Shown: piece after piece, positions 6,191-63,979 of the stretch
Numbering within the stretch: position 1 is the stretch's first letter
Layout: every line of letters starts with the position of its first letter
DNA from: Liolophura sinensis
Lineage: Eukaryota > Mollusca > Polyplacophora > Chitonida > Chitonidae
Assembly: GCF_032854445.1 (NCBI RefSeq)
Contig: NC_088297.1
Location: 27,273,915 to 27,337,914 of the forward strand
Reading direction: 5' to 3'
DNA length: 64,000 nucleotides
The notes under the pieces: generated by a model
The model's database searches: none
Told to the model about the DNA's origin: nothing
Seen by the model: the letters and a program-made list of their open reading frames with translations, nothing else
Made by a program: the position numbers and the translations under genes

Positions 6191-9100
6191 TTCCACCACG
6201 AGGAAGGTTGATGCACTGGCTCAAGTCGCTGCGGATCACACGGGTCATTGCCGTCCTGCTCCTTGTGCTGGTAAGCGTGGCCTTGATAACCCACTATTAC
6301 CTGTCCAACATGAGCACAGAGCCTGTCAGGGAAGGCTCACAGAGACGCAAACCCCTTGGAGATGCCATCGTTGATCCAGATCTCATCAAAGGTATTGCGG
6401 AGGTTTAATGCCACTCTCAGTATTCAGCCATTTTCATGCCTTAAAACTGTATTTTAAGTTCATAAGTTTTATATCTGTAGAGAATTATTAACATTCATTG
6501 GCAGCAAAACGTCAAATTTTAGGGGGCTGAGGCAGCGGAAGTAGTATCCCACCCAATCAGGCGAGAGTCCAGGGGCTGCCTAGACATTTCATTTGGTCTG
6601 TAAAAAAAAATTATTTCAAGGGGCACTTAGGTCCCCCACTTATATCTTCATGGGGGGTTGGGGGGTGGGGGAAGGGTCTGGGCTGGTGGAAGGAACCTAT
6701 AGCCTATGACATTTGACAGTAGTATGTTTCATCTTGGTGATAGTAAGTAATGCACGAATCCCCCATGGCCTTTTGCAAAGTGTAACATTCATTGATGACA
6801 AATTGTCTTTCAGCAAAGTGTTTTGCATTTTTTACAACCCTCGTGGGAAAGTAACTTGCCAAAGGTCAGCCTAGCCACTCCCTGTACTAGACATATTGTT
6901 AAGTAAATGTGTTTTATGAAGGTAGACTTTATTAGTGGAATTAGTTGAGGATTTAGGACAAGTAAAACTGTTCAAATTCTGTGTTTAATTTGGTACCACA
7001 TAGTAATTTTTGAAAAAGTCAAGAACATTGCTTTATATTAAGCTGTCCTGTACAAAGTACAAGTAGAACTTACATGTATTTCGTACTAATACCCTGAGCA
7101 TTAGTGTTGATGTTGGCGTAGAATAGCAGGCGTGACAGGGAAAGCAATGTTTCAGTACATGCTCTAGGGGTGGTACATGTACCTCAAAAAGCACTGCATG
7201 TATTAATTTCAGTACTTTACAAAATTTATGGTCTTCAGCTCCTTATGTATTCAGCTAAAGTTTTGTATTGATGTGTCTCCTGTAGGTCAGCTGTTTGGTA
7301 GCCTTGCTACCAAATCTTAAGGTCTTGTTTTTCATTTTTATCAAATTTTACTCTTAACCAATTTTCTTTGGATTTAAACATTACACTGAGAGAAGGCCTG
7401 AACTATTACCCAGTATTTGCAGATGTGTTTCTCAGTATTGGTTTATGTCCTCCACATGGCTGAGATTGTTATCGTGCCAGTATGGCGCGATAACCCAGGA
7501 GCTTCTCACTGATGCAGTCGCTGTGAGTTCAAGTCCAGCTCATGCTGGCTTCCTCTCTGGTCGTGCGGGTGATGATCTTCCAGCAGCCTTCAAATGATAG
7601 TGACTTTGCCCCAGGCTCTGCCCGGTTTCCTCTTGCCACAATCAAATAAATCAGTATTGGATTATGTGTATTGTAATACCTGGCACTGGATATAGGGTTT
7701 TATTTTTTTGGTCATTTCCAGGGTCCGACCTGGAGTACCATGTAGACGAGCTGAAACGAATCAAATCCTCGGTGGCCAAGGAGTTACGGGACTTGGAGAG
7801 TAAGCGCCAGAAGCTGCAGACAGAGATCTCGGGGTACACTACCCACATTGACAGCCTCAAGTCTGAGTATGAGCGGTTGACCAAGGACCTTCAGATGCTC
7901 AAGATCACCATCAACCAGGCTAATATGGAGAAAGAGGAAGCTTTCATGAAAACTCTGCCGGACATCAAAGCCCCGCAGCGCATCCTGGCAGGCCTGGAGG
8001 ATAACGTGAATGTTGCATCGCCGCGCTCCCCGCTGTCCTGCAGAATGCACTCATGCTTTGATTACTCACGTTGCTCACTGCTGTCGGAGTTCCCGGTCTA
8101 CTTCTACAGTCCCAGTGACTATGGCATGGGGTTATCGCCAGTAGAGCACTTCGTTGAGAGGTCTGTGAGCGAGGCATTCGGTGTGACGCCGTATGCCGTC
8201 AGCGATGGCGATCTCGCATGTTTGTACGTTGTTCTGATTGGAGAACTGCAAGATGCGTCGTTCAGCACAGCTACGCTGGAGGAGACGCTGCGCAGTTTGC
8301 CTTACTGGCACGGGGATGGCAGGAACCATGTGCTGTTAAATGTCGCCAGGACGCATTCCAATGTGGACATCTTCGATGACGTGGATACAGGAAGAGCTTT
8401 CCTCGTTCAGTCCACTTTTACCTCCAGGAATTTCAGACGTGGGTTTGACATAGTGTCTTCACCAGCTCTCGGTGTGGCCAACGGTGAAGTCTGGCAGGGT
8501 TTGCCTCCCCTGTCACCACTAAGACGGAAATATCTGTTAACATTCCAGGGTGAGTATCTCGCTCCGCAGCCAGCCTCTATTAAGACCAACGCCAACAAGA
8601 ATAATGTGCTGCAAGAAATAAATAATCAAAGACAGCTTCAAAGTGTTTCTGAAGTGGCTAATTTGTTGAGTCTTGAAAAGACAGTCGTGGACACGCTCAA
8701 GAGAATGCAGTCTGTGTCAGAAGACGGGTTTAACTTTCAGTTTGCATGTGAGGGTTCCAAGTTACTGGGTGCGGTCAGCGAGTGGTCGCTATGCGGGGAC
8801 TGACCAGTCAAGGCAGAACTTCTTGCAGGATTCTACCTTCACACTTATTTTGACTCCCACAAATACTAGTCTCGTGTCCACTGTTATAACTCAGATCCGT
8901 CTTTATGAGGCACTGAGGTATGGTGCTGTTCCTGTCATCCTCGGTGACCACCTTGAGCTGCCGTTCTCCGAGGCCATTGACTGGCGCCGTGCATCCATTA
9001 TCCTTCCGAAGGCACGTCTCACCGAGCTACACTTTTTTGTGCGCACCTACACAGACACTGACATTTACACTCTGAGGCATCAGGGACGTTTTCTCTGGGA

Positions 9101-44632: not shown

Positions 44633-47380
44633 CAGGGTTTTACCTGGCTGTAATTTTTGTGGGGTCCAATGGACCCCATTCAGAAAAAAAGTGGGGTCCC
44701 ACATACCATAATGGGGGTCCAATGAATTTTTAATATATAAATGACCTATAAAAACACATATATATATATATTAATGACCTTTGTGCTCTGTTTATTTTTT
44801 TCAATGTTACAAAGACTTTTTCTCTATCATGAAAGTCAAACTCTCAATTTATGTTATGATTATCACTTATATAGTCACTGAGTGGCCTTGAGTGACAGTC
44901 TGACTAACTGTACACTGAGAGAACTTATTAATGAGGAAGTCTTTTTTTCATGTCAGTGAAAATTTTGGCTGCTCTGGCAAAGTCAAAGTGCTCCACACTG
45001 CCACCATTCAGTTTGATAAACATCAGCCTGTTTAGACGTTCTGGGGTTATCCGGTTCCTGGATTTGTTCTTGATTGCATTTTGGATGGAAAATCCCCTCT
45101 CACATGGGGCAGAGGAAACTGGAAGCACCAATGCAATTTTGCCATGTAACACAAAGTCAGGAAACTCTTCATTGAACTCTCTGATCAACACTTTCACAAA
45201 AGCTTCAAATGAAAGCACTTGGTATGACTTAACTAAGTGTTTGAACTGTAGAAAGCTAGCTTCCATTCTCTCTTTGTTAACAAGCTCTTGGTAAAACTCT
45301 ACTAACACACCAAACCGCCATAATCTAAGAGGTTAAGGTCACTAGGGTATCGCCCTGGGTTGAACAGGACATCAAAACATTCAAGCTTGTCTAACATGTC
45401 ACTGGGAAACCTGTCATCAAGGTTACTGCTGAGCTTATCCAGGTAGGTATTTCTGATATCATTAAACCTTTGCCTGAGAATGTTATTATCTGTAACATTC
45501 ACATCATGGTACTTGGCGGCCTCTCCTGTTGTTGGCATCTCACCCAAAGCATTGAGGACTTCCGTAACCTTGCTGGACCCTTTTCTCATGTCAGTCAATG
45601 TGTTCTTGGCAGAAGTAACACTGTGTTTGATATGAGAAAGGTTGACGGCATCTTTCTGGAACGTAAGACTTAGAATTCCAATGGCTGTTAAAATGTCAAT
45701 GAGGAGGGCTGTGAACAACAGGAACAATGAATTGCCAATAAATTTCGATAGTCCTACTGCTTTCGGTGATTTTTCCGCATCAAGGGAGAGCATAATGGCA
45801 CAATAACTGTCTAGAATCATTTTCACAGCAGACTCAATAGAAAGCCAACGAACAGATGTGGGTTGCACGATTTGTTTTGCCTTGCCGTTAAGAACAGTTT
45901 GTAGCTGTCTTAGCTTATCGTATCTGACAGAAGAATCCCTGTAAAACTGATAGAGTGAGTGGATCATGGCGTGATAGTTCTTGCAATACTCAATCGACTT
46001 TCCTGCCTGGGATACAGCTAAATTCAAACGGTGAGCCACGCAGTGGATATGGACAATATTCTTATTTCGACGGCCCAGTTTTGCGCCGAGTCCATTGTGA
46101 CGACCAGTCATTACAGCCGCTCCGTCAGTTCCCAGACCAAGGACTTTCTGCATGTCATCCTGGCAAATGTTTTTCCTTTCCAAAACTAAGATAATGGCAG
46201 TTTCAATACCAGCAGCGGTACCGTCTGTTATACGTTCATTGCCTATAAACGACACATGCACTTCTCCATTGTCAATGTATCTAACATAAATGGCATTTTT
46301 TTTTCCACTGATACATCACAGGTCTCGTCCAACATTATGCCAGTGAAGTCACTTGCCTGTAATTTGTCAAGAATGCTTTCCTCCACGACTTGTTCTATAC
46401 ACTCCTCCATATCGGAGACAATTTGCGGCCGTTTGTAGTACTGCTTCACTTTTACACCATTCAAAACTTGCAAGTCCATTAGGTCTCGAAAATTATCAGC
46501 GGCAATGTTATTTTTGGCCATCACAAAAACAGTTCTTAGCTGAATCATTTCGCTGTTCATTTTTTCGTCGTACGTATTTTGGCTGACTTCGCGAACTTTT
46601 TTCATGGCCGCATCTGTGTGAGAGCGCATATGTAAAATCTTTACAGCCTCGATGTGTTGTTTAGAATCTTGATGGCGGGACAATGCGCTGAGTTGATAGT
46701 TACAACAGCCCTGGTTTGTTGCGAAGGAATAGTCAAAATTTGCACTTTTACAAGTGTTACATATCATACCCGAGGCCTGGGATTCGGAGTTGGCCCTACT
46801 CAACCATGGAAATTTCATTTGCCATTCGGTTTGAAACGATCGAGTGCGAGCCCGTTTAGGTGCCGATACCGCGTCTGTTTCAGTGTGTGAAGTTTTTTCA
46901 GCTTCAGCCGGCTCAGGTGATTCAGAATCACGCATGACAACAGTGTGGCTAGACTCGGATCCACCGCCGAAAAACTTTGACAACTTGGACTGTTTGCTCA
47001 TGATTTGCTTTGAATGATAGCCCATTTGCTCAGCGGACCGCTTACACTTTGCAGCGCGTGCCGTGTGCATTGAAGCAGTGCGTCAATTCATTGATCCCCC
47101 TCTAGCAGCATACGTCACAATTGTAGGCCACGCATGCTATTTTTAGCGCTGGATGTGCCATGTTGCTACCGTAGAACACGTGGATGCTGGTTTATGAAAA
47201 TAACTGGATACATGAATTATTTTAGTGACTAAATCAGCTTCCATGGGCACTTGGATGTGGTTGTAAATTTTGGGGGGTTTTTTTGTTGCGTCCCATGGGA
47301 CCCCTGCCGATGCATTTTTTGCGTCCAAGTCAAAAAACACGCGTCAGAGACGCGTGTTTTTTGCGTCCGGTAAATCCCTG
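44633..47380 (-). mobile_element. hAT transposon (inner), minus orientation
   Basis: Terminal inverted repeats CAGGGTTTTACCTGGCTG (44633) and CAGGGATTTACCGGACGC (complement, ending 47380), flanked by a 5-bp duplication ATATG (44628-44632 and 47381-47385). Subterminal palindromes are present: TGGGGTCCAATGGACCCCA near 44663 and a 14-bp stem AAAAAACACGCGTC...GACGCGTGTTTTTT at 47332-47362. It carries one transposase gene on the minus strand. The short duplication differs from the 8 bp usual for hATs. Confidence 0.9.
44928..47070 (-). pseudogene. hAT transposase of the inner element (KIAA1586/ZNF862-like), two frameshifts
   Basis: Read from 47070 downward. An N-terminal nuclear-type basic region and a zinc finger (CNTCKSANF...SRHQDSKQH) are followed by the catalytic core with Asp in GIMLDETCDVS, Asp in LGLGTDGAAVMTGRHNG, the C-x2-H of HCVAHRLNL, and Glu in APCERGFSIQNAIKN near the C-terminus. 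The style matches the domesticated KIAA1586/ZNF862 group. The frame is broken twice: at a nine-T run (46296-46304, plus strand), where one more base would restore it, and near 45310. Both breaks are single-base. Either the copy is dead or one break is a consensus error. Confidence 0.85.
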
Positions 47381-49924
47381 ATATGGACGCTTCACACTGT
47401 ACAACATCACCATTCCTACAAATCCAACGAAGGGATTCAAGCTGTTTTCAAAACCGTGTTTCCAGATAGTGAAATTGCGAAACGATTTACATGTGGTGAG
47501 AAGAAAACAGCATATTTGTGTTGTTTTGGACTTGCTCCACATTTCAAATCCTTGTTGGAAAGTCGTGTAAAACAAGAACAATTTGTGCTCTGCTTCGATG
47601 AAAGCCTCAATAAGGTAACAAAGAATGAGCAGCTTGACCTACATGTAAGATTTTGGGACACAAATTGTGTTTCCACTAGATATCTGGGATCACAGTTCTT
47701 GGGCCATACAAATGCTGAAGCCCTACTTGAGAGTGTGTGTGAAGATCTTGAGAGGATGAATCTTTCAAATTTACAACAGGTATCAATGGATGGGCCATCC
47801 GTAAATTGGAAACTTTTTGATATGCTCCAAGACAAGGTTGAAAAAGACACTGGAAACAAATTTCTGAACATTGGCAGTTGTGGACTTCATGTTATCCACG
47901 GTGCCCTGAAAGATGGGTTCTTTAAATCTGACAATGGTGTTCACAATTTCCTTTCATCTTTGTACTGGCTGTTTAAAGATTCCCCTGCACGACGAGAAGA
48001 CTTCTCAAAACTGACAGGTTCCAACACATTTCCGTTGATGTTTTGTAAGCACAGGTGGGTGGAAAATGTCCCTGTTGCTGAAAGAGCATTGGAGATGTTC
48101 GACAATGTGAAAATGTTTGTTAAGGCAGATCAAGACAAAAAAGTGAAAGACCCTGGGACAAAGTCATTTCAAACTGTGCAGGAAGGATGTCAGAATGTTT
48201 TGCTTTATGCAAATATCCATATGTTCCTGACAGTAAGCAAACTGCTGACACCATTCCAGACCATGTATCAAGCAGAAAGACCACTGCTGCCCTTCATGTC
48301 AGATGACCTCTCCTACTTGCTAAAAAGCCTGCTTCAGTCAGTGATCAAAGCAGATGTTCTAAAAGAAATTGATACCCCACTTAAACTAATTAAGCTTGAT
48401 GTAAGAGACAAAAAGCTGTGGAAAGAAGTATCAGCAGTAGATCTTGGGTTTTCAGCAGAAAATGAAGTAAAGCGGTTGCATTCAAAGAAGAAAATTTCAG
48501 ATCGTCAACTCATTGAGCTGCGACAGGGTCACCGTGAAGCATTACTTCGCGTTGTCGAGAAACTTCAAAACAAATCACTATTGAGTTACACTCTTGTTCG
48601 TAACATGAAGTGTTTAGATCCGAGACAGATGGTTCTGGACAAATCTGGCTGTGTAGCAAAGATGAAGAGACTGTTAAAGTGTCTGGTGGACAGTAAGAAA
48701 ATCATTGAGTCAAATTGTGATGATGTGATTAGAGAGTACCAAGAGTTCTTGGATCAAGAAGTTCCAATGGCAGAGGCAAGCTTTAGTGAATTTAATCCAA
48801 AGCTTGATACCCAGAGAGGTGATGTTTTTTTGCATGACCATCTTGCCCACAAAGCCAAAAAGTTATGGCGAGTTGTCAAAAGCCTTCTTATTTTGTCACA
48901 TGGCCAGGCAAGTGTGGAGCAGGGATTCTCTGTGAATAAAGAAGTTGCAACAGACAACTTGCAAGAAAGATCTTTCGTGGCTCAGAGAATAGTCCTTGAT
49001 CACCTCTCAGCAGTTGGTGGTATTTCAGGTGTAAACCTTACAAAGCCTCTAGTGCTTGCTGTAGGTAGTGCAAGGCAGAAGTATATGGCCCACCTAGATG
49101 ATGTGAAAAGACAGAAAGAATCACATAAACAAGCACAGAAAAGAAAGTCAACAATGGACCAGTTAGAGGAATTGAAAATGAAGAAAAGGAGAATCGAACA
49201 GAACATAGCAGGTTTATACAAGTCATCAGAAGAGTTTTCAGAGAGGGCAGAGGCAACAGGGGACATTACCTATGTGGCAAGAGCCAACAGCCTCAGGAGA
49301 AATGCTAAGGAGAAATCCAACAGTATTACAGATATTGACAGAGAAATAGAGGAAATCCTGAAAAATCTTAAGAATTAGGCTACAGGCATCTGAAATTTTA
49401 GAGACTTTAGTGAGTTATCTAAACTGAGTGAGACCTAATGGACCTCATTAAAACTGTGCTCTAAACCATTATCTGAACACGTACTGTGTGATTGAACTTC
49501 TTGTTTTATTGCCTGTTACCTTAATGTGTGTTTGCCTGAATTGGCATTTGAGATTTGAAATGTGTTCAGTTATCTTAACTGACTCATTCAACATTAAAAT
49601 CTGTGTCTGCTGGAATTTGTCCCAATTAAAAGTGTTACAATTTAACTCTCTGGCTTGCTTCGTATTCAGTATGGTCGCTGATGGTGTAGCTATCTCGAAT
49701 ATAGGTGCTTGTCCATCAACCTGAGGCTGCACGAGCGTGGTTTCAATACCTGTGTCAAGGGATTTTCATGATCCTCATGCTTTCACTGTGTGAGGCCTTG
49801 ATCGCAATATGCAGTCGGTGTTGCTATTTATATGGCTTTACATGGATGTTGTGACTTCCGTTCGCATTAAGTTCATTACAGATCGCATGCAGTTCATCAA
49901 TATGTCGAGTCAGTCATACAAGTT

Positions 49925-50060
49925 CAGCTGGTATAACTCACCAAAGGTCGCTGGTTTACCACGGGTACTCTGCCTTCCTCCAGCCGCAATGCACTAGTCG
50001 CCATCATAGAAGTGAAAAATTCTTTGTGTGGTGTAAGACAAAGATTAAATGAATAGATCT
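49925..50060 (+). mobile_element. Degenerate SINE inside the outer hAT
   Basis: CACCAAAGGTCGCTGGTTTA, CTCTGCCTTCCTCCAGCCGC, CATCATAGAAGTGAAAAATT and GGTGTAAGACAAAGATTAAA resemble the main SINE with many changes. It sits in the 3' non-coding end of the outer hAT. Confidence 0.55.
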
Positions 50061-50213
50061 TTACAAACAACTTGATGAAATTGGTCTTTAATTTTGGAGA
50101 ATGACAGCCTTAAAAGTCTTTAAAAAGTCTTTAATTTTCATAATACCTAAGGTGTATGAACCCTGTATTAGAGAATCACTGTCAATAGGTATAACGATGA
50201 TGTTGGTATAACA

Positions 50214-51240
50214 GTGCGTACAATGAAACATCATCAAAAAGCACAAGCACTACGGGAGGAGTTTGAGACGCTCCTAGGTGTGCGGCCCAAGTACCCACGG
50301 TCCCACATTGCCTTGGAAGAACTGCAGGGGATCCTCGACAGGTATAAAACGGCTGTGGCTGAGTTGAAGCGGCTGCAAGACAGCAAGAACTCCCGAAGTA
50401 ACGAGGAGTTGAAGCAAGACGTCAGTAACGAGGAGTTAAAGCAAGACGTTAAGAACCTCCTCAGTAACGAGGAATTGGATGAATTGCTAGGCGAAAAGAA
50501 ACTAGAATTCATTAACACCGGCAGGGTTATAAGGAATCTCCTCCGGGTCTGGCAGATGAATGTACCCGAAGGCGTTTGGACGGACTCAGTAGCCGTCTTA
50601 GAAGAAGTTCGAGCTGTTATTCGCCAGAAGCTAGAAGAAGAGATCCTGGCACTCAACGGGGTTCAATTCCAACTAGGCCTCAGGGTTCAGTTGCGAAAGA
50701 GCAACGCCGATGGCAGTGAAGAGTATACCAGCCCAGTACTACACAACAAACAGGAGGCCCTCTTAGAAGCCGGTGACATTGACGGGGCTCTAGAAAAGGC
50801 CTTCCCCACCATCCAGGAGGTGCTAGAAAAATGGACACAGCGAGGGTCAGGGTGGGTTGTCAATAGCGTGCAAACACTCTGGCTTGACATTGCAAGGTAT
50901 CAGCCACTGAGAGGCGGGTCCTACATCCCCCTACCCGCAGCTGTGAGTAACAAGAAAGCAGTCATCGGTGTGAAGAACAAAGACGACGACTGCCTCCGAT
51001 GGGCACTCCGGTCTACCTTATTTCCAGCCGCCGGGCACCCTCAGAGACCAACAAAGTACCCCACCAATGATGGTCTTGACTTTGGGGGGATCGACACCCC
51101 CACGCCCATCTCTCAGATCCCTAAAGTGGAGTAAAAGAACGACCTCGCCATCAACGTGTTCGGGTGGGACAAGGGCGTGATCGTGCACCGCCTCAGCAAG
51201 AAGCCCGGCGACATGCCGCGAATCAATCTGCTGCTGATTG
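50214..51240 (+). pseudogene. Polinton-associated protein, N-terminal part of the polymerase-linked polyprotein type
   Basis: A frame from ATG 50223 runs to TAA 51132-51134, then resumes in the same frame to about 51240 before all resemblance stops. The N-terminal half is acidic and coiled-coil-like with a duplicated SNEELKQDV segment. The C-terminal part (GSGWVVNSVQTLWLDIARYQ; LRGGSYIPLP; KKAVIGVKNKDDDCLRWALR; PISQIPKVE) is a conserved block that usually precedes DNA polymerase B in invertebrate elements of this type. The in-frame stop at 51132 and the lost downstream part make this a broken gene. Its role is unknown. Confidence 0.7.
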
Positions 51241-52100
51241 ATCATGCAGAAATGTTGATCAACCAGTCAATGCCGTTTTAACTCTGTTGAGGTTGACGGC
51301 CGCTGCCAAACTCCTCACCTCGTTTTTTGACAGCATGATATCGGCTAAGCATCTGCAGGAGAATATTGACTATAAGTATTTTGTTCAGTCTTAACATTGA
51401 AGGCAGTTATACTGAATTTAGTGTCTTTAAAGATATAACTGTGAAGAAACTACTGGTTAACAAAACTTCGCCCTGTTTGTGCAGAAAAAATGTATCTTTG
51501 TATGGCAGAGGAATAGTTTGTTTTCTGTCGGGACACTCACACGAGGGCCGAATGACTGTTTACAAAAATGGCGTCCCGTGGGAAATGCATATCAAAAAGG
51601 TCCATTGCTTTTTGGGAGGACGATTTAAAATCAAATTTTGAATTTACGTTGGATGATGGAGGAGAGAAAGTAGTGGCTGTAACATGCAGTCTGCTTACAT
51701 TTATGATGTTATTTGAGTGCTTCTGTTCCTGATGAATAAATCTGTTGAAATTTTCAACACTGGTTTTAACATCAAACTAAAAACGCAACTTTGTATCATC
51801 AGTTAATAAGGTTTTCTCATATGTTTATCATATGCTGAATTATGGTATTCATTTATTGTGTCCTGTTGCCTGATTGTTAGTTGGCACTTGTGACAAGGGC
51901 TCGCCATCAATAAAAGTCGATTTAGGTTAATTTGTCACCAAACCGTTTGTGTTTAAAGTTTTGATAAATCTAAATATTAAAAGAGTTAAACTGAATTTTA
52001 GTTGTTTCTTACATGTATATACATTTATTTTGAGAATTTTCGTTTTGACTCTTTGGGCTCTCGCAAATGGCAGTAGTGGGAGTCCACCTGGACTCTCGCG
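51241..52100. other. Unidentified AT-rich segment interrupting the Polinton gene
   Basis: The conserved frame breaks off near 51240 and recognisable polymerase-associated sequence resumes near 52100, with more than 100 expected residues missing. The DNA between is AT-rich, with short open frames of no known family. It could be an insertion of another element that replaced Polinton sequence. No terminal repeats were found. Confidence 0.4.
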
Positions 52101-52133
52101 TCTCCGCACGAAATTCTGACCCTGGAACGCCCC

Positions 52134-54306
52134 GTGGAATACAGAGGCCCTAACGCGACAGAACACTTCCTCAGAGCTCTCCAACAGGAGGAGCGGGAAA
52201 TCAAAAATGTTCTAGCCAACCTTATACCCATGAATATGACTCCCCAGGACTGGCAGGCCCACAACAACGTGTGTGAGAAGCCTCTAGGCGCCGATTCTGT
52301 GCGCGATCACTGCCATATCACCGGCAAGTACAGAGGCGCGGCCCATAACGCATGCAACCTAAAGTTGCGGCTGGGTCCCAAGACAGCCATACCAGTAGTC
52401 TTCCACAACCTACGGGGCTACGACGGGCACCTCCTGATGCAGGCCATAAGTAAGGCGGAGGGCCGCATCTCCTGCATCCCCAACAGCACGGAAAAGTACA
52501 TCTCCTTCTCACTGGGGCAGCTCCGCTTCATCGACAGCATTCAATTCTTACCGACTTCCCTTGACAACCTGGTAGAGGCCAACAAACCGGAGGCTTTCCA
52601 CATCACAGCCCGGTATGAGCCCGCCGAAGAAAAATGAAAGCTGCTCATGCGTAAGGGTGTCTACCCCTGTGAGTATATGGACTCCTGGGAGCGCTTCGAC
52701 GAGTCAAGCCTCCCACCCAAAGAGGCTTTCTACAGTAATCTCAAAGTCAGAGGCATTAGCGATGAAGACTACATCCACGCTCAACAGGTATGGAAGGTAT
52801 TTGACTGCACCAATCTGGGAGACTACACAGACCTTTACTGCCGCACAGACGTGCTCCTGTTGGCCGATGTGTTTGAGGCCTTCCGGAAGACTTGTTTACG
52901 GCAGTATGGATTGGACCCTGCACACTACTTTACGAGCCCAGGTCTCTCGTGGGATGCACTGTTCAAGAAGACCGGGGTAGAGCTGGAGCTGTTGACAGAC
53001 TACAACCAACATCTCTTCATTGAGAAGGGGTTGCGCGGAGGTATCTTCATGGTAAGTAAGCGATACGCCAAAGCCAATAATCCGCAGGTGGAGGGATACA
53101 ACCCAGAAAGTCCAAACAGCTACATCCAATACCTAGACGCCAATACCTTCCAATGGGCGGCTTCCAGTGGGTAGATGACGCACGGCGTCTCGGCGAAACG
53201 ATTGCTACCCACCCCCACGACAGTCCTTCAGGTTACATCCTCGAGGTTGACCTAGAGTATCCGGCCGGCCTACATAACGCACATAACTGGTGGTCCAGAA
53301 GGAGTGGATGTCAGGCTATCAGCACGGCCTTCTCGGTAGGTCTACCGAGGTCGAAAAGCTGGTCCCCAACCTCCGCAACAAGGAACGGTACGTCCTGCAC
53401 TACCGGAACCTACAGCTGTATCTATCTCTAGGAATGCGCCTGACCAAGGTTCACCGGGCCCTGAGATTCGCCCAGAGCCCTTGGATGGAACCCTATATCA
53501 GGATGAACACCAAGCTCCGAAAAACGGCCACGAGTAAATTCGAGAAGGACCTGTACAACTCGGTCTTCGGAAAAATCATGGAGAACCTTCGGAAGCGTGT
53601 GGACGCCAAGCTGGTATGCTCTGGAGAAGACGATAAGATCCGGCGCTTGATAGCCAGCCTGAGCTTCGCACGGGCGAACATATTTGATGATGACCTCGCA
53701 GCGTTTCAGATGCACAAGACCCGTCTAGTCCTAAACCGACCTATCTGCGTGGGCATGAGCATTCTAGATCTCTCCAAGCACCTGATGTACGACTTCTACT
53801 ACAACCACATGAAGGCCCAGTACGGAGAGCGCTGCCAGTTCCTCTACGCTGACACGAATAGTCTGCTACTCGAGATTAAGACTGAGGATGTTTATGAGGA
53901 TATAGCTGAGAATGCAAACCTGTACGACACCTCAGATTACCCACAAGACCACCCCCTGCACAGCGTAGCAAATATGAAGGACAAGTGCGCGGGGCGGCAG
54001 ATCGCCGAATGCATGAATCGTCTGCGCCCCAAGATGTACTCCATTCTGGAGGCAGGTGGAGCCAACATTAAGAAGGCCAAGGGCGTGAAAAACGGAGTTG
54101 TGGAAAAGCGCACCCGCCATAAGCAGTACAAAGAGGCCCTCTTCGAGAAAAAGATCTTCCGACGCAGTATGGACGTGCTGCGATCAGAGCGCCACCATAT
54201 CTATGGGCAGCACCTGAATAAGGTCTCACTGTCCCCCTTCGATAGTAAGCGCTGGATAGCCGAAGATTGTGTCCACACTTTGGCTCATGGCCATGCGCCT
54301 CCTTGA
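52134..54306 (+). pseudogene. Polinton DNA polymerase B pseudogene
   Basis: Order of parts: an HNH/endonuclease VII-like segment (DHCHITGKYRGAAHNACNL), exonuclease motif II (NLRGYDGHLL), exonuclease III region (YTDLYCRTDVLLLADVF), the palm and TPR-like region (FIEKGLRGGIFMVSKRYAKA; GYILEVDLEYP), the finger region (TATSKFEKDLYNSVFGKIME), the palm motif C region at about 53850 and the C-terminal thumb (YSILEAGGANIKKAKGVK). The gene is broken by an in-frame TGA at 52635-52637, a frame change with a small loss near 53150 just after palm motif A (IQYLDAN), and another near 53285. In motif C the second aspartate of DTDS is asparagine (YADTNSLL), so even unbroken it would lack a catalytic residue. 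Confidence 0.88.
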
Positions 54307-55903: not shown

Positions 55904-55930
55904 CAGTGAGACCAGCAACAAGGTGTAAGT

Positions 55931-58900
55931 ATGGCATCCGCGGAGAAGGCTTTGCCGTATCGTGTGACCTGGGCGCCAAACGAAGCCTTGCTGAAACTTA
56001 TGGAAAGAACAGGATACACCATACGGCATAAAAAAGGGCAAAGAAAGTACGGCGGTCCACCTCCCGACTGGGAAAGCCCGCCTCCTTTAAAGGGTTGCGA
56101 ACTTTACATCGGAGGTATTCCAAGAGACTGTTATGAAGACGAGCTTGTTCCAGTATTTGAGAAGATAGGGAAGATTTATGAACTGAAACTCATAATGAGC
56201 TACCTCTCTGGATCCCATAGAGGATATGGATTTGTTATATACACTAACGAAGAACACGCGAATCAAGCGGTAAAGGAGCTTAACAACTACGAAATTCGTA
56301 AAGGCCAGCTCTTGGGTGTTTGCAAATCTGCCGTAAGTCATGTAATTTCCACTATAGAAGCTTTATTGGTTGTCTCTTCGTTGCAAATTAAAACACATTT
56401 AATTGCCAATGTAGACAGCACCAGACGTCGGAAATATTGGTTGGTTAGTTGTAAAATTCACGAGTAGGTATCACAGTCCAAACAAATTTGACCAAATTTG
56501 AATTTATGTAAGCCGTTATTTGAAAAGTTATAATTGAACTAAAGTTTTTTGTATGAAAGGGGTATTTTGTGAGGGTGGATATGTGTAAAATGTTGCGTAA
56601 CTTCTTGAAATTTCTTATCGTCTGCTCTTTCATTTTCTGTCACGAGAAGGTGGTGTGTGCGCGCGCGCGCGCAACATTTCTTACAACAAGTGATTTCTTT
56701 TGTACGGGAGGCTGCGGTAATAATTAATATGGTCACTTATGGCTTAAAAGCACTGATGCATCGTCATCTTGTCCATTAATATTGTGCATATTTGTATGAC
56801 TGGAATAATATTTATGTTGTGCATATTTGTATTACAGAGGAGAGTTTTGCACGTGGGGAACCTTACGTCGAGAATTACAGAAGACAAAATTAGAGAGCTG
56901 TGCAGTCAAGTTGTGGGAAGAGACAATGTTGTGGAAAGAGTAAAGAAGATAAGAGGTTTTGCATTCATTCATTTTAGAGACAGAGATGATGCTATTATGG
57001 CCATGACTAAACTTAATGGTGAGAAAAATTATTTATTTTGGAGTTGTGTTGATTGGTTTTGGATAAATACAAAATGCATTAATGGAAGTATATTTCTTCT
57101 ATCGGTAGGCAAATGTAGTTTTTGTGTGCATTTATAGAGTGTGATATATTTCCATTCTGATAGTTCTGTTTCTGATAAGTAAAAGTTCATTTTCGTTTGT
57201 CAGTCGCATGTGGCACATTATTATTTTTTAACTAGTTTTTCACTTGATTGATGTTTACAGAAAATTACATGATAGAATATCCACCAACATCTAAGGGAGA
57301 GTATTTGGAAAACATGCTAACTCGAGTAATTAAGATGAAACAGTGAATAACTGACACATCGCTTGCCTATAGGATGTTTAATACTCCAACTACGTACAGG
57401 AAGTGGCTCACAATTATGGGACAGACTTATATATATTTACAGAAGAGCACATACAGTATAAATTCACACTTCAAAGCATAAGGTGTGGGCATTCTCTAGA
57501 ATATTTGTTTGGATAAATTTCTGTATAAATTGGATTTTATGTTAGCTTATTATTAACTTAATATCATCCCTCATTCAACATGGATGGGAAGGTCTGACAG
57601 CAACCTGTGAATGGTTGTGGGTTTCCACCAGGCTCTGCCTGGTTTCCTCATGCTATAATGCTGGTCACCGTCGTATAAGTGAAATATTCTTGAGTACAGC
57701 GTAAAAACGCCAATCAATAAATCATTCAGCATGAAAAAAAGCTGTTGAACATTAAATGATCAAATGTTTAAAAGAGGGGAGTTGTTTCAACAGTTACATG
57801 TAATAGGCTGAATATTGAACCCAAGCTCCCAGGACCATTTTGCCAGGAATTTTTTGAGAAAATAAGAAGTTTTCTTGGGAAAAACTCTAGGTAGACTGTA
57901 TCTGGAACACTTTTTAACTGATGTGTAGCATTTGTACTACGTCCTCATTCTTTCAAGAAATAAAACTAAAGGAAGATCAAGGTGAGAAGGCATTATATAA
58001 TAAGTCATATATATTTCTCTCTAGGAATGAATGTTGAAGGCACTTGCATTGAGGTTGTATGGGCAAAAGGAAGAAATCAGGTAAGAAATGATTTGGTCAA
58101 TGTTACTGCCACATCGTGAAAGTCATCTCAAATGTGTAATTCAGGACAGCCCAGCGATCATCCTCTCCCATAGGTTAAGTTTGTCTGTAACATAGTATGT
58201 GAAGTAAACTGTGTTAAGTTGGAAGGGTTCAAATGTTTTCATATTGAGAGTTTGTGGAAGGTATTTGGTCGGGAACCGGGACCTGTCCACATTTTTCCCC
58301 CATCAGCTTTCTTTCACCATTGTAAACTCATCTGTCGTGTATGTGTGAAGTAAGCTTTGCATATAAACACCAAATTATTTATATATATTTATATCTGGTA
58401 AATAATTGAATTTTACTACTGATGAAAATTCTTTATTGCAGGCTAATCAGGACTGTCACTTGGATGAGGTTGATAGAGCATACAACAGAGGCCAGGAAGC
58501 ATTGGAATCTTGGAAGCAGAGAGTATCATATGTCAGGGTAAGAGTTCCTCATATGGTAGGACAGGGGGTTCTGTTATGTCAGGGTAAGAGTTCCTCCTAT
58601 GTTAAGGTAGGGGGTTCTCATATATCTGTAGCGGGTTCTCACATATGTGGGTAGGAGGTTCTCATATGTCAGGGTAAGAGTTCCTCATATGTCAGGGTAG
58701 TGGGCTCTGTTATATCAGGGTAAGAGTTCCTCGTATGTCAGGGTAGTTGGCTCTGTTATGTCAGGGTAAGAGTTCCTCATATGTTAAGGTAGGGGGTTCT
58801 CATATATCTGGGTAGGAGGTTCTCATATGTCAGGGTAAGAGTTCCTCATATGTCAGGGTAGTGGGCTCTGTTATGTCAGGGTAAGAGTTCCTCATATGTT

Positions 58901-61900
58901 AAGGTAGGGGGTTCTCATATATCTGGGTAGGAGGTTCTCATATGTCAGGGTAAGAGTTCCTCATATGTCAGGGTAGTGGGCTCTGTTATATCAGGGTAAG
59001 AGTTCCTCGTATGTCAGGGTAGTGGGCTCTGTTATGTCAGGGTAAGAGTTCCTCGTATGTTAAGGTAGGGGGTTCTCGTATACCTGGGTAGGGGGTTCCC
59101 ATATGTCAGGGTAAGAGTTCCTCATATGTTAGGGTAAGGGGTTCTCATATGTCAGCATAAGAGTTTCTGGTATGTAAGCATAGGGGTTTCAGATCCGGTA
59201 TGCAAGGGTAGGGAATGCCACTGATGGCTTATGATGTTGAAATTTTCCAGTGTGTAGTAATATTGAAGGCTCATATGTGTAGTATAGTGCCTTAGCCTTT
59301 CGGGCAGTGGATTAAAAAAATTATTAGAACTACATGCTAAAAATCTTTTATAATAACTTTTTTAATCGGTGTATAATACTATATTCAAGAATTGTCACAT
59401 TATTCCACCACAATCAGGTTTATGGATGGAGGAAATTGGAGTAAGACCTGGATTTGTACATGAATTTATAGGTCAAGTGGAAGCAAGTCAGCTGTTCAAC
59501 CGTTTGAGCGAATCTGCTTTTATGCATGCTTTGGTTGTATGACAAGTGTACTTGATACTGTGACAAATTTTTCAGGGCTATGGCTATGATTTTGATCCTA
59601 GTTACTCTCCACCATCGTTTTACAACCCGATGTCTCCACCACCCGCAAGGTAAGAACTATTTTGGCCTGAAATCCACAACTCTGTTCACCCAATATAAGA
59701 ATACAGATGAGAATCCAGCACAGCAGATGATCTTGCAGTCAGAAAAGAGTTGTATTCTTGGAATTTTTATAAAAAATCGGTTAGCTTAGAACAATTTTTG
59801 AAGAATTAGGAGCATAGGTTGTCATATTCCACCGTGTGTGTCCAGTTTGTCTTTTTAATATCAGGGTTCTCAGAACTGTCAGATGCTCCGTCATTTGTGT
59901 GCTTCAGACCAGGGACAGGATATTTGTCTTTGGTTTTAAATCATTTCAGTTATGATCATCTAAGATGAAATCTTAGATAACCTAAGATTATATTTTACCT
60001 TATGATTTGTCTGTAATAACTGTAACTGTAAATAAGCATAGGTAAGTGGGTTTTACAAAGTACAGTATTGTAGCTCTCCTGCTGATATGTTAATGGATAC
60101 AGAGTACAGAGTGAGAACTAGAAAAATGACATGGGCAAGTCTACTTTGGAAACTGAAATCCAAAATGAGGTAATGACGGATTTCAGTTGGAAGGTGCTTC
60201 ACAGGGAGCAGAAATATTTGCAAGACTGTGCAAGGCATAGCTTTATTGAAAACAGGCGATTTTATTGAATGGTAGGGGCTTGCTTTTTGCCAAGAATTAA
60301 TATGAACTTCGTACCACCTGTGACCTATATTCTTTAATTGTCACTCTGTAGCTTTCCATTCATCAGCATACATGTAGGAAAGGTACACTACCATATTTAG
60401 TGGTTTTGCCATTGTGGCTGATAGAGTCATTTGACGTGAAAGAAGTTGCATTTATGTGTTATCCATGCGATGTCCTCAAAAAAAAAAACGTTCTATGAAC
60501 TTCTTACATGTAAGTATACAAAGAAGCATTAGGTTTCATCAACCGAACCTTAATAGCTCAATATATTTGATTTTATGTGAACATCTCAGTAGGAAAAGCA
60601 GGAAGAAGAAACTTTAAGAAGGCTCAGTCACATAATTTTTACCATGAAATAGCTTGAATATTTGTGCTTTTTGTACTGTTAGCAGGGGGTTGGCAGAGCA
60701 AGGTCCCATGGGCATCAGAAGCCCTGTGGGAGGCCAAGGGATGATGAGTGGGTGGGGCTTTAGGAAACATCCAGCAGAGGTGTGTATCGTTGTCAATGCA
60801 GAAGGTTTCTGGTCCCATATCCCATTAAAAAGTTGCGCATTGCAACATATTCTGAAGCATGCTTAAAAGGACTATGCAGTCATAAAATCTACAATCTGCC
60901 TACGCCGTACTAAAAGACATGAACCGATTGTGCAATTAACCAGAAGGTGAGTTAGTTCAGTTTCGTTGAAGATGGGTGTTTGTTTAAACTTTGAAGTAAC
61001 AGGTAACATACTTAGAAACTAATTCTTATCTAATATTTCCTATACATGTAATGAGTTTTGAATTAAATTTCGTTAATCAGGTGTGTTAATAGCCAAAAAA
61101 AAATTGGCTGTCTTGTTATCATTGAAAGTTGTCATAATGCAAGGCTCTGTGTTTAACCTTTGACCATGATTTTGTTTTGTGGAAGAATTTTTGTTTTACT
61201 AATTACCTTTAATTTATAGCCTGATTGCCCGAGTGAGGCTTCAGTAAATCAAGAGTGTCAAAAACTGTATGCATGTAACGATGTTCACTATAGGTGCTCG
61301 ATGACCTTTGCCAGAAGAATGGATGGGGAAGTCCTGTATACGAGCTTCAGCCTCCCATGGTAAGGGATGGAAGTGGTGCCCAACAGCTCTTTTTGTACAA
61401 GGTACTACCATAGGTTTCAACAAAATGTTGATAAGAAACTTGTTTGAAGAGATAAGAATCAAGTTTTTTTGCTGGAATGTAACTTTTTTTATACAATTAA
61501 TCATGTCCATGTGTACCAGAAAGAATAAGAAGTAAATTATCTTATAAAAATAAATAAAAATAATTGATCTGACGTAAATCGAAAAAAAAGAATTTCGTGG
61601 TTGTGATTTATACATGTATAAGTGTCATGTATAAGTGTCATGTAGAAGTTGATGTTAGACATTTACATTGGTAATCTATGGTAAAGTACATTTGTCTTTC
61701 AGATCACCATACCAGCTCTCGGTACTCGGTTTCCAAATCCTAACCCATTTACCCCAATTAAACTGTGTTCTACTGTTGAGGAGGCAAAGGTTTTTGCAGC
61801 AGAGTACACTTTGATGCAGTTAGGTGTGCCTCTTGAAGGTAAAGTTAGTGTCCAGAGAAAAAAGGAAAGACAAACAAATGCTTCACAGCCCAAGCTCTAC

Positions 61901-62435
61901 CCTTTTTCACTTATGATACATCATTTTATAAGTGGCCATTGTATGCTTTGATTTCTTCTTTCTTTCCTGAACCAGCTTTGCTTCTTGAAAGTTAATTTAA
62001 GAAAGTAAGAGCTATCTCATTTTACATGTTTGTAACAGTATATGAAAAGTATAAAAAAACTTCTTTACTGGATAATATGTAATAAGACATGCTGCAAAAA
62101 CTTAATTGCTGAAAATTACTATTCATAGCTGAGCTGTTTGCCGTTATGTAAGCACTTGTGACATGCATCAGGTATTCTGTGTCTTAGCAACTCGTTTGAA
62201 GAATGAATGGTTAAATACTCACATACATACATGCATGTGGTTACCCAAGTATATTTTGAATGAATATTAGCCAGGAAAGTAACTATTTGCATAACTAGAA
62301 TTGTCAGAGTTTATTGTTTTGTGCTGCAGCCCTAGAGTACATTGGCCCACCATATCCTTACACCCAGCCCAGCTATGTCACCCACCCCGACCCACCTTCC
62401 AACAGATCATGTGAAAAGCCATGGATGGACCTAAG
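55931..62435 (+). CDS. A1CF/RBM46/RBM47-family RNA-binding protein lacking RRM2
   Basis: Coding exons are 55931-56332, 56838-57018, 58025-58080, 58442-58537, 59576-59649, 60686-60779, 61294-61401, 61703-61838 and 62330-62435, all GT-AG and phase-compatible. Domains: the family leader ([12 protein letters not shown]...[12 protein letters not shown]), RRM1 ([37 protein letters not shown]), an RRM equivalent to the family's third ([36 protein letters not shown]), a Gly/Pro-rich linker, and the DND1-type dsRBD ([49 protein letters not shown]). Exon 1 joins directly and in phase to the RRM3-type exon, and no RRM2 exon lies in the 505-bp intron. Relatives act in mRNA editing, stability or germ-cell differentiation. 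The end is uncertain: translation may read on to a stop at 62614-62616, or splice to 63387. Confidence 0.85.
56656..56673. repeat. Short GC-alternating tract
   Basis: GTGTGTGCGCGCGCGCGCGC: an alternating purine-pyrimidine run, potentially Z-DNA forming, in the intron where RRM2 would be expected. Confidence 0.8.
57590..57722 (+). mobile_element. SINE copy
   Basis: CAGCAACCTGTGAATGGTTG, CAGGCTCTGCCTGGTTTCCT, AATGCTGGTCACCGTCGTAT, GTGAAATATTCTTGAGTACA and AAAACGCCAATCAATAAAT. In an intron of the RNA-binding gene. Confidence 0.88.
58531..59180 (+). repeat. Minisatellite of duplicated splice donors in the RNA-binding gene
   Basis: The exon ending at 58537 reads TATGTCAGG|GTAAGAGTTCC. The next 640 bp repeats TATGTCAGGGTAAGAGTTCC about a dozen times, alternating with GTCAGGGTAGTGGGCTCTGT and GTTAAGGTAGGGGGTTCTCA (46-bp period from two 23-bp halves). 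Each full copy preserves the donor hexamer GTAAGA and the last bases of the exon. Confidence 0.93.
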
Positions 62436-62586: not shown

Positions 62587-63386
62587 ATATTGACCGGTCA
62601 TGTTTTGTGCTATTAATTGAATGGCTGAAGTATTTGCGTCTTATAATATTGTTATTGATCGCCAAAAGTTTTCAAAACCAAGGTGCGTAAAAGCGGCCTT
62701 GCAGGAAAGTCAAAGCGCCGGAGCGATATCAGTGAGTCGCCAAACTTGGGGTTTAAGAAGCTAATTCGGAGCGAAGCTGTTGTTTCTTCACACACAGAAA
62801 AGTTATCATTTTGTCCAAGTATGTACCGAATAGTTTTGTTTGGTCGATTACATCTTGTGATCCCTGATCATCTGAACTACTGTGTGTAACTGACAGCCGT
62901 GTACATGGGCTTGACAGGCAAACATGACTTTTCACAAGGGTTTAATTCACCCGGCACGGAGAGTCATGTTTCACCAGATTGCTTCTATCTCCTGAAGTCT
63001 CAAAATGGCCACCGTCGTATAAGTGAAATATTCTTGAGTACAGCGTAAAACACCAATCAAATAAATAAATAAATAAATCTCAGAATGGTTTGGATATAAT
63101 GTTCTAGCCATTCTCTTGGTCCGCAGTTGTTTTGCTATGTGGTTTGAATCTTAAAGCACTGATGATAAGGCTCAAACATGTTTAGTATGGAGTGAAACAC
63201 TTAGGACAGTTTTAACAAGGGGAATAAATCTGGGGGTGTAGTATCATGGTAGGATACTATACATAGGAATAGGAATGTCAGAGCTTTAATTCAATCAGGC
63301 GTTACTATATCAATGTAAAATGTTGAACATCTGGACATTGCTTTGGTTACTTAACCAGCTTCAATTTATGTTCTTTCTTATTTCAG
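62587..63386 (+). other. Intron or intergenic segment with a SINE tail
   Basis: Contains a SINE 3' end at 63005-63082 (CACCGTCGTATAAGTGAAAT, TCTTGAGTACAGCGTAAAAC, then AAATAAATAAATAAAT). An open frame at about 62683-62889 (basic, GKSKRRSDISESPNLGFKK) has no family I recognise. It ends in a strong acceptor, TTCTTTCTTATTTCAG, at 63386. Confidence 0.5.
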
Positions 63387-63393
63387 TTTAAAC

Positions 63394-63498
63394 ATGGCAA
63401 CTTCAAGATATCACTTGTTCGATCCGCCAGAAGAAATTGACTTCCTAGCCGTGTTCCTTGGAGCAGGAGGCGGAACCTGTGAGGACAATGAAAAATAA
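63394..63498 (+). CDS. Short frame overlapping the Nanos-Myc start (possible N-terminus or terminal exon)
   Basis: From ATG 63394 (AACATGG context), just after the strong acceptor at 63386, a 34-codon frame reads MATSRYHLFDPPEEIDFLAV... and stops at 63496. Two readings fit. It may be the N-terminus of the Nanos-Myc protein with a one-base error in AAAAA at 63491-63495. Or it may be the terminal exon of the RNA-binding gene, because joining the donor at 62435 to the acceptor at 63386 keeps the phase and enters this frame. No domain is recognised. Confidence 0.4.
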   Translation: MATSRYHLFDPPEEIDFLAVFLGAGGGTCEDNEK

Positions 63499-63979
63499 AA
63501 GAATCAAGAGAAAGGTCAATCCTACAAAACACACCTTTTGTGTGTTATGCAAGAATAATGGCGAGATGCTGTCGGTGTATGGTATGCACGTTTTGCAGGA
63601 TGACTCCGGTCGTGTGACATGTCCAATCCTTTGGCGTTACACCTGTCCTATATGTGGGGCAGTCAGGGATAACGCACACACCGTCAAATACTGTCCCAAC
63701 AACGTGAACCGAGAAAGGCAACTAAGGAATTACTTGAAACAAAGCTTCTGGGAATTAAAAGACGCAGTTCCAGCGCTCATACAACAGGAAAGGGTACCAA
63801 GAGTGGTTATATTGAAAAAAGCCACAGACCACATTCATGAATTAACTACGAAGCAAAATGTTATGTTGACAGAACTGCAAATACAGAGAGAGCGAATTAG
63901 CAGCTTATTGGAAAGCTGCGGTTACTACAGTGTTGAAAGCTTGTACATTACCTGTCGTCGTGCCCTTGTGTTCATGTGA
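63488..63979 (+). CDS. Nanos zinc finger fused to a Myc-type bHLH-leucine zipper
   Basis: One uninterrupted frame of 163 codons from ATG 63488. After a basic start (MKNKRIKRKVNPTK), residues about 19-68 form a complete Nanos double zinc finger: C-x2-C-x12-H-x10-C (CVLC...H...C) and C-x2-C-x7-H-x4-C (CPIC...AHTVKYC). Nanos fingers bind RNA with Pumilio. The last zinc ligand is followed within three residues by a Myc-like domain: ERQLRNYLKQSFWELKDAVP, RVPRVVILKKATDHIHEL, then a leucine/isoleucine-rich zipper. Vertebrate Myc has [20 protein letters not shown] and APKVVILKKAT at the same places. The Myc histidine that reads the E-box is Asn here, and the preceding basic residues are missing. Upstream, a short frame from ATG 63394 (34 codons, stop 63496-63498) overlaps in another phase. 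An extra A in the A5 run at 63491-63495 would join them. Confidence 0.85.
   Translation: MKNKRIKRKVNPTKHTFCVLCKNNGEMLSVYGMHVLQDDSGRVTCPILWRYTCPICGAVRDNAHTVKYCPNNVNRERQLRNYLKQSFWELKDAVPALIQQERVPRVVILKKATDHIHELTTKQNVMLTELQIQRERISSLLESCGYYSVESLYITCRRALVFM

Follow-up and report, generated by a model that had tools for sequence, protein, structure and literature searches.

A decayed, multi-copy Nanos-Myc chimera on one chromosome of the chiton Liolophura sinensis, probably an unprocessed pseudogene

Towards the end of a 64,000-nucleotide stretch of the Liolophura sinensis genome (the window, C3:27273915-27337914 of a 609.46-Mb assembly in 632 contigs), a single open frame places a Nanos zinc finger just ahead of a Myc helix-loop-helix (HLH). 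Does this frame belong to a gene for a fused protein, or is it what a chain of duplications and losses has left behind? Overall, we believe that the second answer is very probably the right one, and that the window locus is a decayed, multi-copy, chimeric unprocessed pseudogene that arose as a duplicate of Myc. The assembly was published under the name Liolophura japonica (PMC11068029), the species name being the subject of a published correction (PMC12441733), and a partial genome duplication is reported for L. sinensis (PMC12005716).

The frame is open for 176 codons at window 63449-63979 on the plus strand (P0001), and it does join the two domains without a break, as the earlier note had claimed. 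Its principal features are these:

63488..63979, plus strand: the frame as reported from its first ATG at 63488, 163 codons and a stop (ORF translation, Pfam)
63539..63694, plus strand: the eight CCHC-CCHC zinc ligands of the Nanos finger, none lost in the window copy (translation, Pfam, PDB match)

Pfam recognises the whole finger (zf-nanos PF05741, positions 1-54 of 54, E=2e-22, 79.6 bits against a cut-off of 27) and, after a spacing of 3 residues, the HLH (PF00010, positions 7-53 of 53, E=2.9e-9, 37 bits against a cut-off of 20.7). The first half of the frame matches Nanos structures in the PDB (5kl1, 5kl8 and 3alr, E=1.9e-16 to 5e-16), and the second half matches Myc (1nkp, E=4.2e-11) better than Max (best E=4.2e-6), so that the HLH is one of Myc type. 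All eight ligands are present in P0001 at the canonical spacing described earlier, the first set as C31-x2-C34-x12-H47-x10-C58 and the second as C66-x2-C69-x7-H77-x4-C82, and the finger-bearing relatives in our alignment have the same spacing.

Other parts of the two proteins are missing or broken. The frame has no Pfam match to Myc_N, which the Myc gene on C7 possesses, and it has no N-terminal region of Nanos, the nanos DNA amounting to only 239 bp with Myc upstream of it. Most of the Myc basic region is absent and an ERxxR remnant stays, the stretch reading QHNVLERKRRN in C7 Myc and PNNVNRERQLRN in the window frame. We take the DNA-contact residues of the Myc basic region to be H, E, R and R; the replacement of the key His by Asn, previously pointed out, is borne out by this comparison. 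The zipper-like tail of the earlier note survives in part: the start of the zipper is present, and a 1-bp deletion near 63894/63895 has exchanged its end for a foreign C-terminus with the tail SLLESCGYYSVESL... In an AlphaFold2 model of the 163-residue frame (mean pLDDT 80.4, pTM 0.40), helices are predicted at residues 74-100 and 108-143, and the Foldseek matches of this model are Nanos chains in six cases out of six, the Nanos half alone being recognised.

At the DNA level, homology runs in the order Myc, nanos, Myc, with Myc flanks on both sides. The features of the locus, with L028 as the reference for Myc, are as follows:

62590..62999, plus strand: Myc 5' region (promoter/exon 1 area) kept from the duplication, 80.9% DNA identity to L028 6490-6944
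63003..63083, plus strand: short interspersed repeat, represented by its tail and ending in (AAAT)n, inserted into the Myc-derived 5' region
63269..63474, plus strand: end of a Myc intron, splice acceptor and first part of the start-codon exon, 89.0% identity to L028 7072-7281
63394..63498, plus strand: reading frame opened by the Myc start ATG, closed by TAA after 34 codons (MATSRYHLF...) and in a different phase from the chimera
63440..63448, plus strand: disabling changes common to copies W, A and B, from the alignment with copies C-E and Myc
63475..63713, plus strand: nanos fragment comprising the linker end and the whole zf-nanos, 239 bp, 91.6% ungapped identity to C1:24540148-24540386 (minus strand)
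63713..63979, plus strand: piece of the last Myc exon with the ERxxR remnant, HLH and zipper start, from the DNA alignment to L028
63980..64000, plus strand: start of the homology to the Myc 3' UTR, which runs on past the window end in L009

The AG of the Myc splice acceptor lies at 63385-63386 and the Myc start ATG ends at 63396. The changes that W (the window copy) has in common with A and B are a 2-bp deletion between 63440 and 63441 and a CAG to TAG change at 63446-63448; this TAG closes the chimera frame on its 5' side, and copy F is open across the corresponding site. Downstream of the finger, window 63713-64471, as extended by L009, retains 83.7% DNA identity to L028 9003-9807. The interspersed repeat, presumably a SINE, has a second tail of 61 bp at window 57662-57722 (87%) and more copies in L028-L031.

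Separate nanos and Myc genes, for which the earlier note had proposed a search, do exist elsewhere in the genome. The nanos parent, at 24.540 Mb on C1, has the whole finger inside a 274-codon open frame, and the Myc parent, at 26.247-26.249 Mb on C7, has two exons with matches to Myc_N (PF01056, E=9.8e-30) and HLH (E=7.6e-14). The first of these exons reads MATSRNHLFHRPEECDSFQPCFFEHETDEEF... and includes EDIWDKFELLPTPPRSP and LIQDCMWSGLSA, which we assume to be Myc boxes I and II. Other nanos genes are numerous. A tandem array on C11 (17950687-18196922, minus strand; L002-L008, L017 and L018) extends over 246 kb and holds at least 141 zf-nanos matches (141 of the 150 scored among 204 candidates, a scored set to which the window copy does not belong), most of them in frames of 201-218 codons; five units in L017 are 1672-1673 bp apart, and the chiton literature searched makes no mention of the array in its available text. 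A second nanos-like cluster, at C1:59619542-59650978 (L011-L014), has six frames in both orientations, three of which are identical to the annotated L. sinensis proteins P0005, P0008 and P0014.

Because Myc lies on both sides of the nanos piece, L028 7282-9002 of Myc must have been replaced by the nanos fragment. The Myc DNA that is missing, about 1.7 kb, begins in the start-codon exon, whose remainder carries the Myc_N region, takes in the intron and ends in the first part of the last exon, and it is the loss of this last-exon start that takes most of the basic region away. The retained intron end and flanks speak for a duplication at the DNA level. A retrocopy (processed pseudogene) was accordingly rejected, with the intron end beside the acceptor and the 5' flanking homology still in place, and so was a mobile element with fixed ends, given that the flanks are kept and that the boundaries differ between copies. 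The junctions suggest, rather, that a Myc duplicate lost its middle by a break and that the nanos fragment may have served as filler at repair.

Two further candidates were dismissed on the sequence of the 5' part. An extra A in GAAAAAT (from 63490) was considered as a frame-breaker, and comparison with parental nanos shows a substitution of GGAAAAT to GAAAAAT (E to K) and no indel. The stretch MATSRYHLF... was considered as a Nanos N-terminus and is that of Myc: its DNA is 89% identical to C7 Myc, which starts in the same way; when it was compared with three Nanos proteins over 1000 shuffles, P0014 beat all of them and P0002 and P0005 did not, and its likeness in L014 amounts to 41% over 17 residues.

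The window chimera is one of seven. When the genome was searched with the Myc part, seven matches came up, six on C3 (window included) and Myc on C7, and a DNA search with 617 bp gave 12: the seven chimera copies on C3, the parental nanos on C1, two pieces of Myc on C7 and two weak matches within a C1 nanos cluster. The copies found by the DNA search are located on C3 as follows:

27.337 Mb (W, the window), 27.443 Mb (A) and 23.150 Mb (B): chimera copies W, A and B
4.5405 Mb, minus strand (C), and 4.5468 Mb (D): chimera copies C and D
2.958 Mb (E) and 2.921 Mb, minus strand, partial (F): chimera copies E and F

An artefact of assembly or library preparation at the junction was named in the earlier note as a danger to the fusion, and nothing specific speaks for it, the coverage being 14x HiFi according to the genome report (PMC11068029). 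It can be given practically no credence, since the 5' junction is found in all seven copies and the 3' junction in five (W, A, B, C and D; it is deleted in E and F), at distinct positions and in copies that have accumulated substitutions independently. A junction that recurs seven times is no artefact. W is 98.9% identical to A over 25.3 kb, and 98.6% identical to B over an unbroken 21.4 kb, with two more stretches of 3.0 and 0.7 kb. Near-identity over more than 24 kb means that W, A and B are products of segmental duplication or, possibly, partly uncollapsed haplotypes, given the heterozygosity of about 1.24% stated in the same report (PMC11068029). Downstream of the chimera lies a 97-bp tandem repeat (L009 3856-4540), whose copy number is apparently different in W, A and B. 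The chimera would thus have multiplied on C3 after its formation, its youngest copies by way of segmental duplication.

The rest of the window holds neighbours of other kinds. Directly upstream of the chimera, and within the segment duplicated in A and B, are exons of an RNA-binding gene (window 55910-61950). They encode RRM_1 and, by a match below the cut-off (PF14709, E=1e-4), a dsRNA-binding stretch of DND1 type, and the gene presumably resembles RBM46/RBM47. Remains of mobile elements occupy window 44928-54306, where most of the scanned frames have no Pfam match, one has a zinc-finger match (PF25431, E=7.6e-13) and one has a faint likeness to type-B DNA polymerases (PF03175, below the cut-off at E=0.009); we take frames in this region to be hAT-like. 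An exostosin (GT47) gene, which may be EXTL3, is divided between two frames at window 8780-8810, close to a run of GGGG; either a frameshift or an assembly error would account for this.

All seven copies are damaged in at least one of the following: start frame, zinc ligands, basic region, HLH and zipper end. No copy combines the start, the eight ligands and the zipper. In W, A and B, 176 codons are open and all eight ligands are kept, and the frame is severed from the Myc ATG by the 2-bp deletion and the TAG, with the end of the zipper lost to the 1-bp deletion. Copies C and D have the Myc ATG changed to ATT and two Cys ligands gone in each, D having a stop and indels in addition. Copy E keeps the ATG and is open through to Myc's own C-terminus, with half of the finger and the basic region removed by in-frame deletions; as its sequence stands, E could yield an HLH-zipper protein. 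Copy F also keeps the ATG and is in frame through most of the finger, with seven of the eight ligands, and its last ligand and HLH are deleted. Flanking and intronic DNA of Myc, together with disabling changes relative to the parent, are marks of an unprocessed pseudogene, and both are found here.

That the older frame linked the Myc ATG to the finger is seen in E and F, where reading from this ATG still passes into the nanos piece without a shift. It is reasonable to ask whether an ancestral chimera, with a Myc N-terminus, a Nanos finger and a Myc HLH-zipper under one promoter, once worked and was duplicated, its copies decaying afterwards. The two junctions are both in frame (1 in 9 by chance, by our reckoning), there are several copies, E and F still cross the first junction in frame, and the stem branch of the copy tree has 10 nonsynonymous (NS) and 6 synonymous (S) changes, an omega of about 0.45 from numbers too few to tell. 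Set against this, the pooled counts after the fusion fit neutrality, and segmental duplication without selection would also account for the spread of copies. We consider a working ancestor unlikely.

The substitution counts over the copies were obtained by parsimony on a tree of six of them, with the truncated F left out and gapped codons skipped. Relative to its parent, the nanos piece of the window has changed in 20 of 79 codons, 16 of the 20 changes being nonsynonymous (neutral expectation 77.7%; dN/dS 1.16), and at each of the 16 nonsynonymous sites a relative's protein, P0002, agrees with the parent. Over the tree, the nanos part has 37 NS and 11 S changes (omega 1.00, 0.50-2.18) and the Myc part 48 NS and 16 S (omega 0.71, 0.40-1.35). 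The pooled omega is 0.85 (0.55-1.37), with P=3e-7 under an omega of 0.3 and P=0.008 under 0.5. The window lineage alone has 38 NS and 10 S (omega 1.03, 0.50-2.32) and the terminal branch of E 12 NS and 3 S. Substitutions after the fusion thus fit neutrality, with weak constraint also compatible and single pairs variable: pairwise omega is lowest, at 0.26, for the nanos part of A-B, where there are two changes, and highest, at 3.1, for that of W-E; in the HLH-zipper, C-Myc gives 0.46 and C-D 0.44.

Comparison of coding DNA with its flanks shows no consistent better conservation of the coding part across copies. W and C differ by 10.5% in nanos, 13.2% in the HLH-zipper, 10.5% in the 3' UTR and 11.3% in the 5' intron, and C and E by 4.6%, 5.0% and 10.4% in the first three of these, the HLH-zipper being the slower there (Fisher P=0.02). 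The reverse is seen in W-E (P=0.003), W-D (P=0.005) and W-Myc (P=0.06), where the HLH-zipper has changed more than the 3' UTR; W-C has P=0.31. In W-A and W-B the 5' intron is the most changed part (4.3-4.6% versus 0.4-1.7% elsewhere). C and D show no difference over an 87-bp piece of the Myc N-exon, although the ATG is lost in both, and their pieces differ from Myc at 2 of 90 and 2 of 87 positions. Gene conversion between copies is a possible source of the spread of pairwise rates. In a simulation without indels at the observed number of substitutions, an open frame with all ligands was kept in 4.5% of cases per lineage (for W, no stop in 23.7% and all ligands in 17.7%), a figure uncorrected for the four other lineages in which they were lost. 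W's retained frame and ligands are hence a mild hint against neutral decay, and we count them against our main reading, together with the open A, B and E copies, the two in-frame junctions and the comparisons that look constrained (the HLH-zipper of C-Myc and C-D, the coding DNA of C-E and the N-exon piece of C and D).

Could one of the copies nonetheless make a working product now? The candidates would be a W-type Nanos-HLH protein begun at ATG 63488 or a copy E HLH-zipper begun at the Myc ATG. An HLH-zipper without activation domain is expected to pair with Max, and either candidate would do so, bind E-boxes poorly and, having no Myc boxes, act as a Myc antagonist. The case for such a product is made by the open frames with all ligands in three of the seven copies, by E, by the Myc 5' region and acceptor that came with the duplication, and by the two predicted helices. 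It has to contend with the omega of the window lineage and the counts on the E branch given above, with a Myc ATG whose frame in W, A and B overlaps the chimera in another phase, with the frameshift that costs these copies the end of their zipper, with Foldseek recognition of the Nanos half only, and with absence from the database matches described next. If the locus were transcribed from the inherited Myc 5' region, the Myc ATG would be the first AUG of the exon and would yield a 34-residue peptide, so that the window's Nanos-HLH protein would be possible only through initiation at the internal ATG. A working product of this kind is, in our judgement, distinctly unlikely, and its more specific version, a W-type germline protein coupling the Nanos finger to Max, or an E-type HLH-zipper, held under relaxed constraint, is very unlikely. 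The earlier suggestion of a Max-tethered RNA-binding finger or a dominant-negative Myc finds no support, given substitutions that fit neutrality, a broken start frame in the window and losses in all seven copies. Judged from its sequence, the window chimera most likely does not work as a protein, and the copies on C3 do not appear to have been kept for one.

Neither of the two protein searches found both domains in one protein. A single-sequence search gave none among 29 matches (34 candidates of about 90-285 residues), and a search with an alignment of five copies gave none listing both Pfam domains among 104 matches (1605 candidates of 107-340 residues); three and four annotated L. sinensis Nanos-type proteins were among these 29 and 104 matches, so the annotation of this species was covered within these lengths. 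Titles and opening lines of abstracts in the literature held nothing relevant to a Nanos-Myc fusion or to nanos in chitons. As far as these searches reach, the pairing of a Nanos finger with a Myc HLH is a new combination, while the kind of object, a duplicated chimeric pseudogene, is known.

The pseudogene reading also sets the locus in relation to its nearest counterparts. Like other unprocessed chimeric pseudogenes, it is a genomic copy with an intron end and flanks, a foreign internal segment, disabling changes and substitutions that fit neutrality; it differs from them in its seven copies on one chromosome and in a Nanos-Myc pair that is absent from the 29 and 104 matches. With L. sinensis Myc it shares the 5' region, the acceptor, the first 27 or so codons, the HLH, part of the zipper and the 3' UTR, whereas the Myc_N region is gone, the basic region is mostly gone, the start frame and zipper end are broken, and ERxRR has Arg changed to Leu in addition to the His to Asn change. 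With L. sinensis nanos it shares the whole CCHC-CCHC finger, but it is without the N-terminal region (about 110 residues) and the C-terminal tail, and its 79 codons carry the 16 nonsynonymous changes counted above. Dominant-negative Myc forms without an activation domain are expressed or engineered proteins, whereas the window copy has a zipper cut short and is known here from sequence alone.

The locus provides a clean case of a domain combination arising, in which a fragment of one gene came to lie in the gap of another gene's duplicate, in frame on both sides, and in which duplication multiplied the resulting chimera before it was lost again. It is at the same time a warning that neutral evolution can leave a long open frame and every metal ligand in place. 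Should a copy prove to be translated after all, L. sinensis would possess a natural Myc antagonist, one that in its W type would carry an RNA-binding finger.
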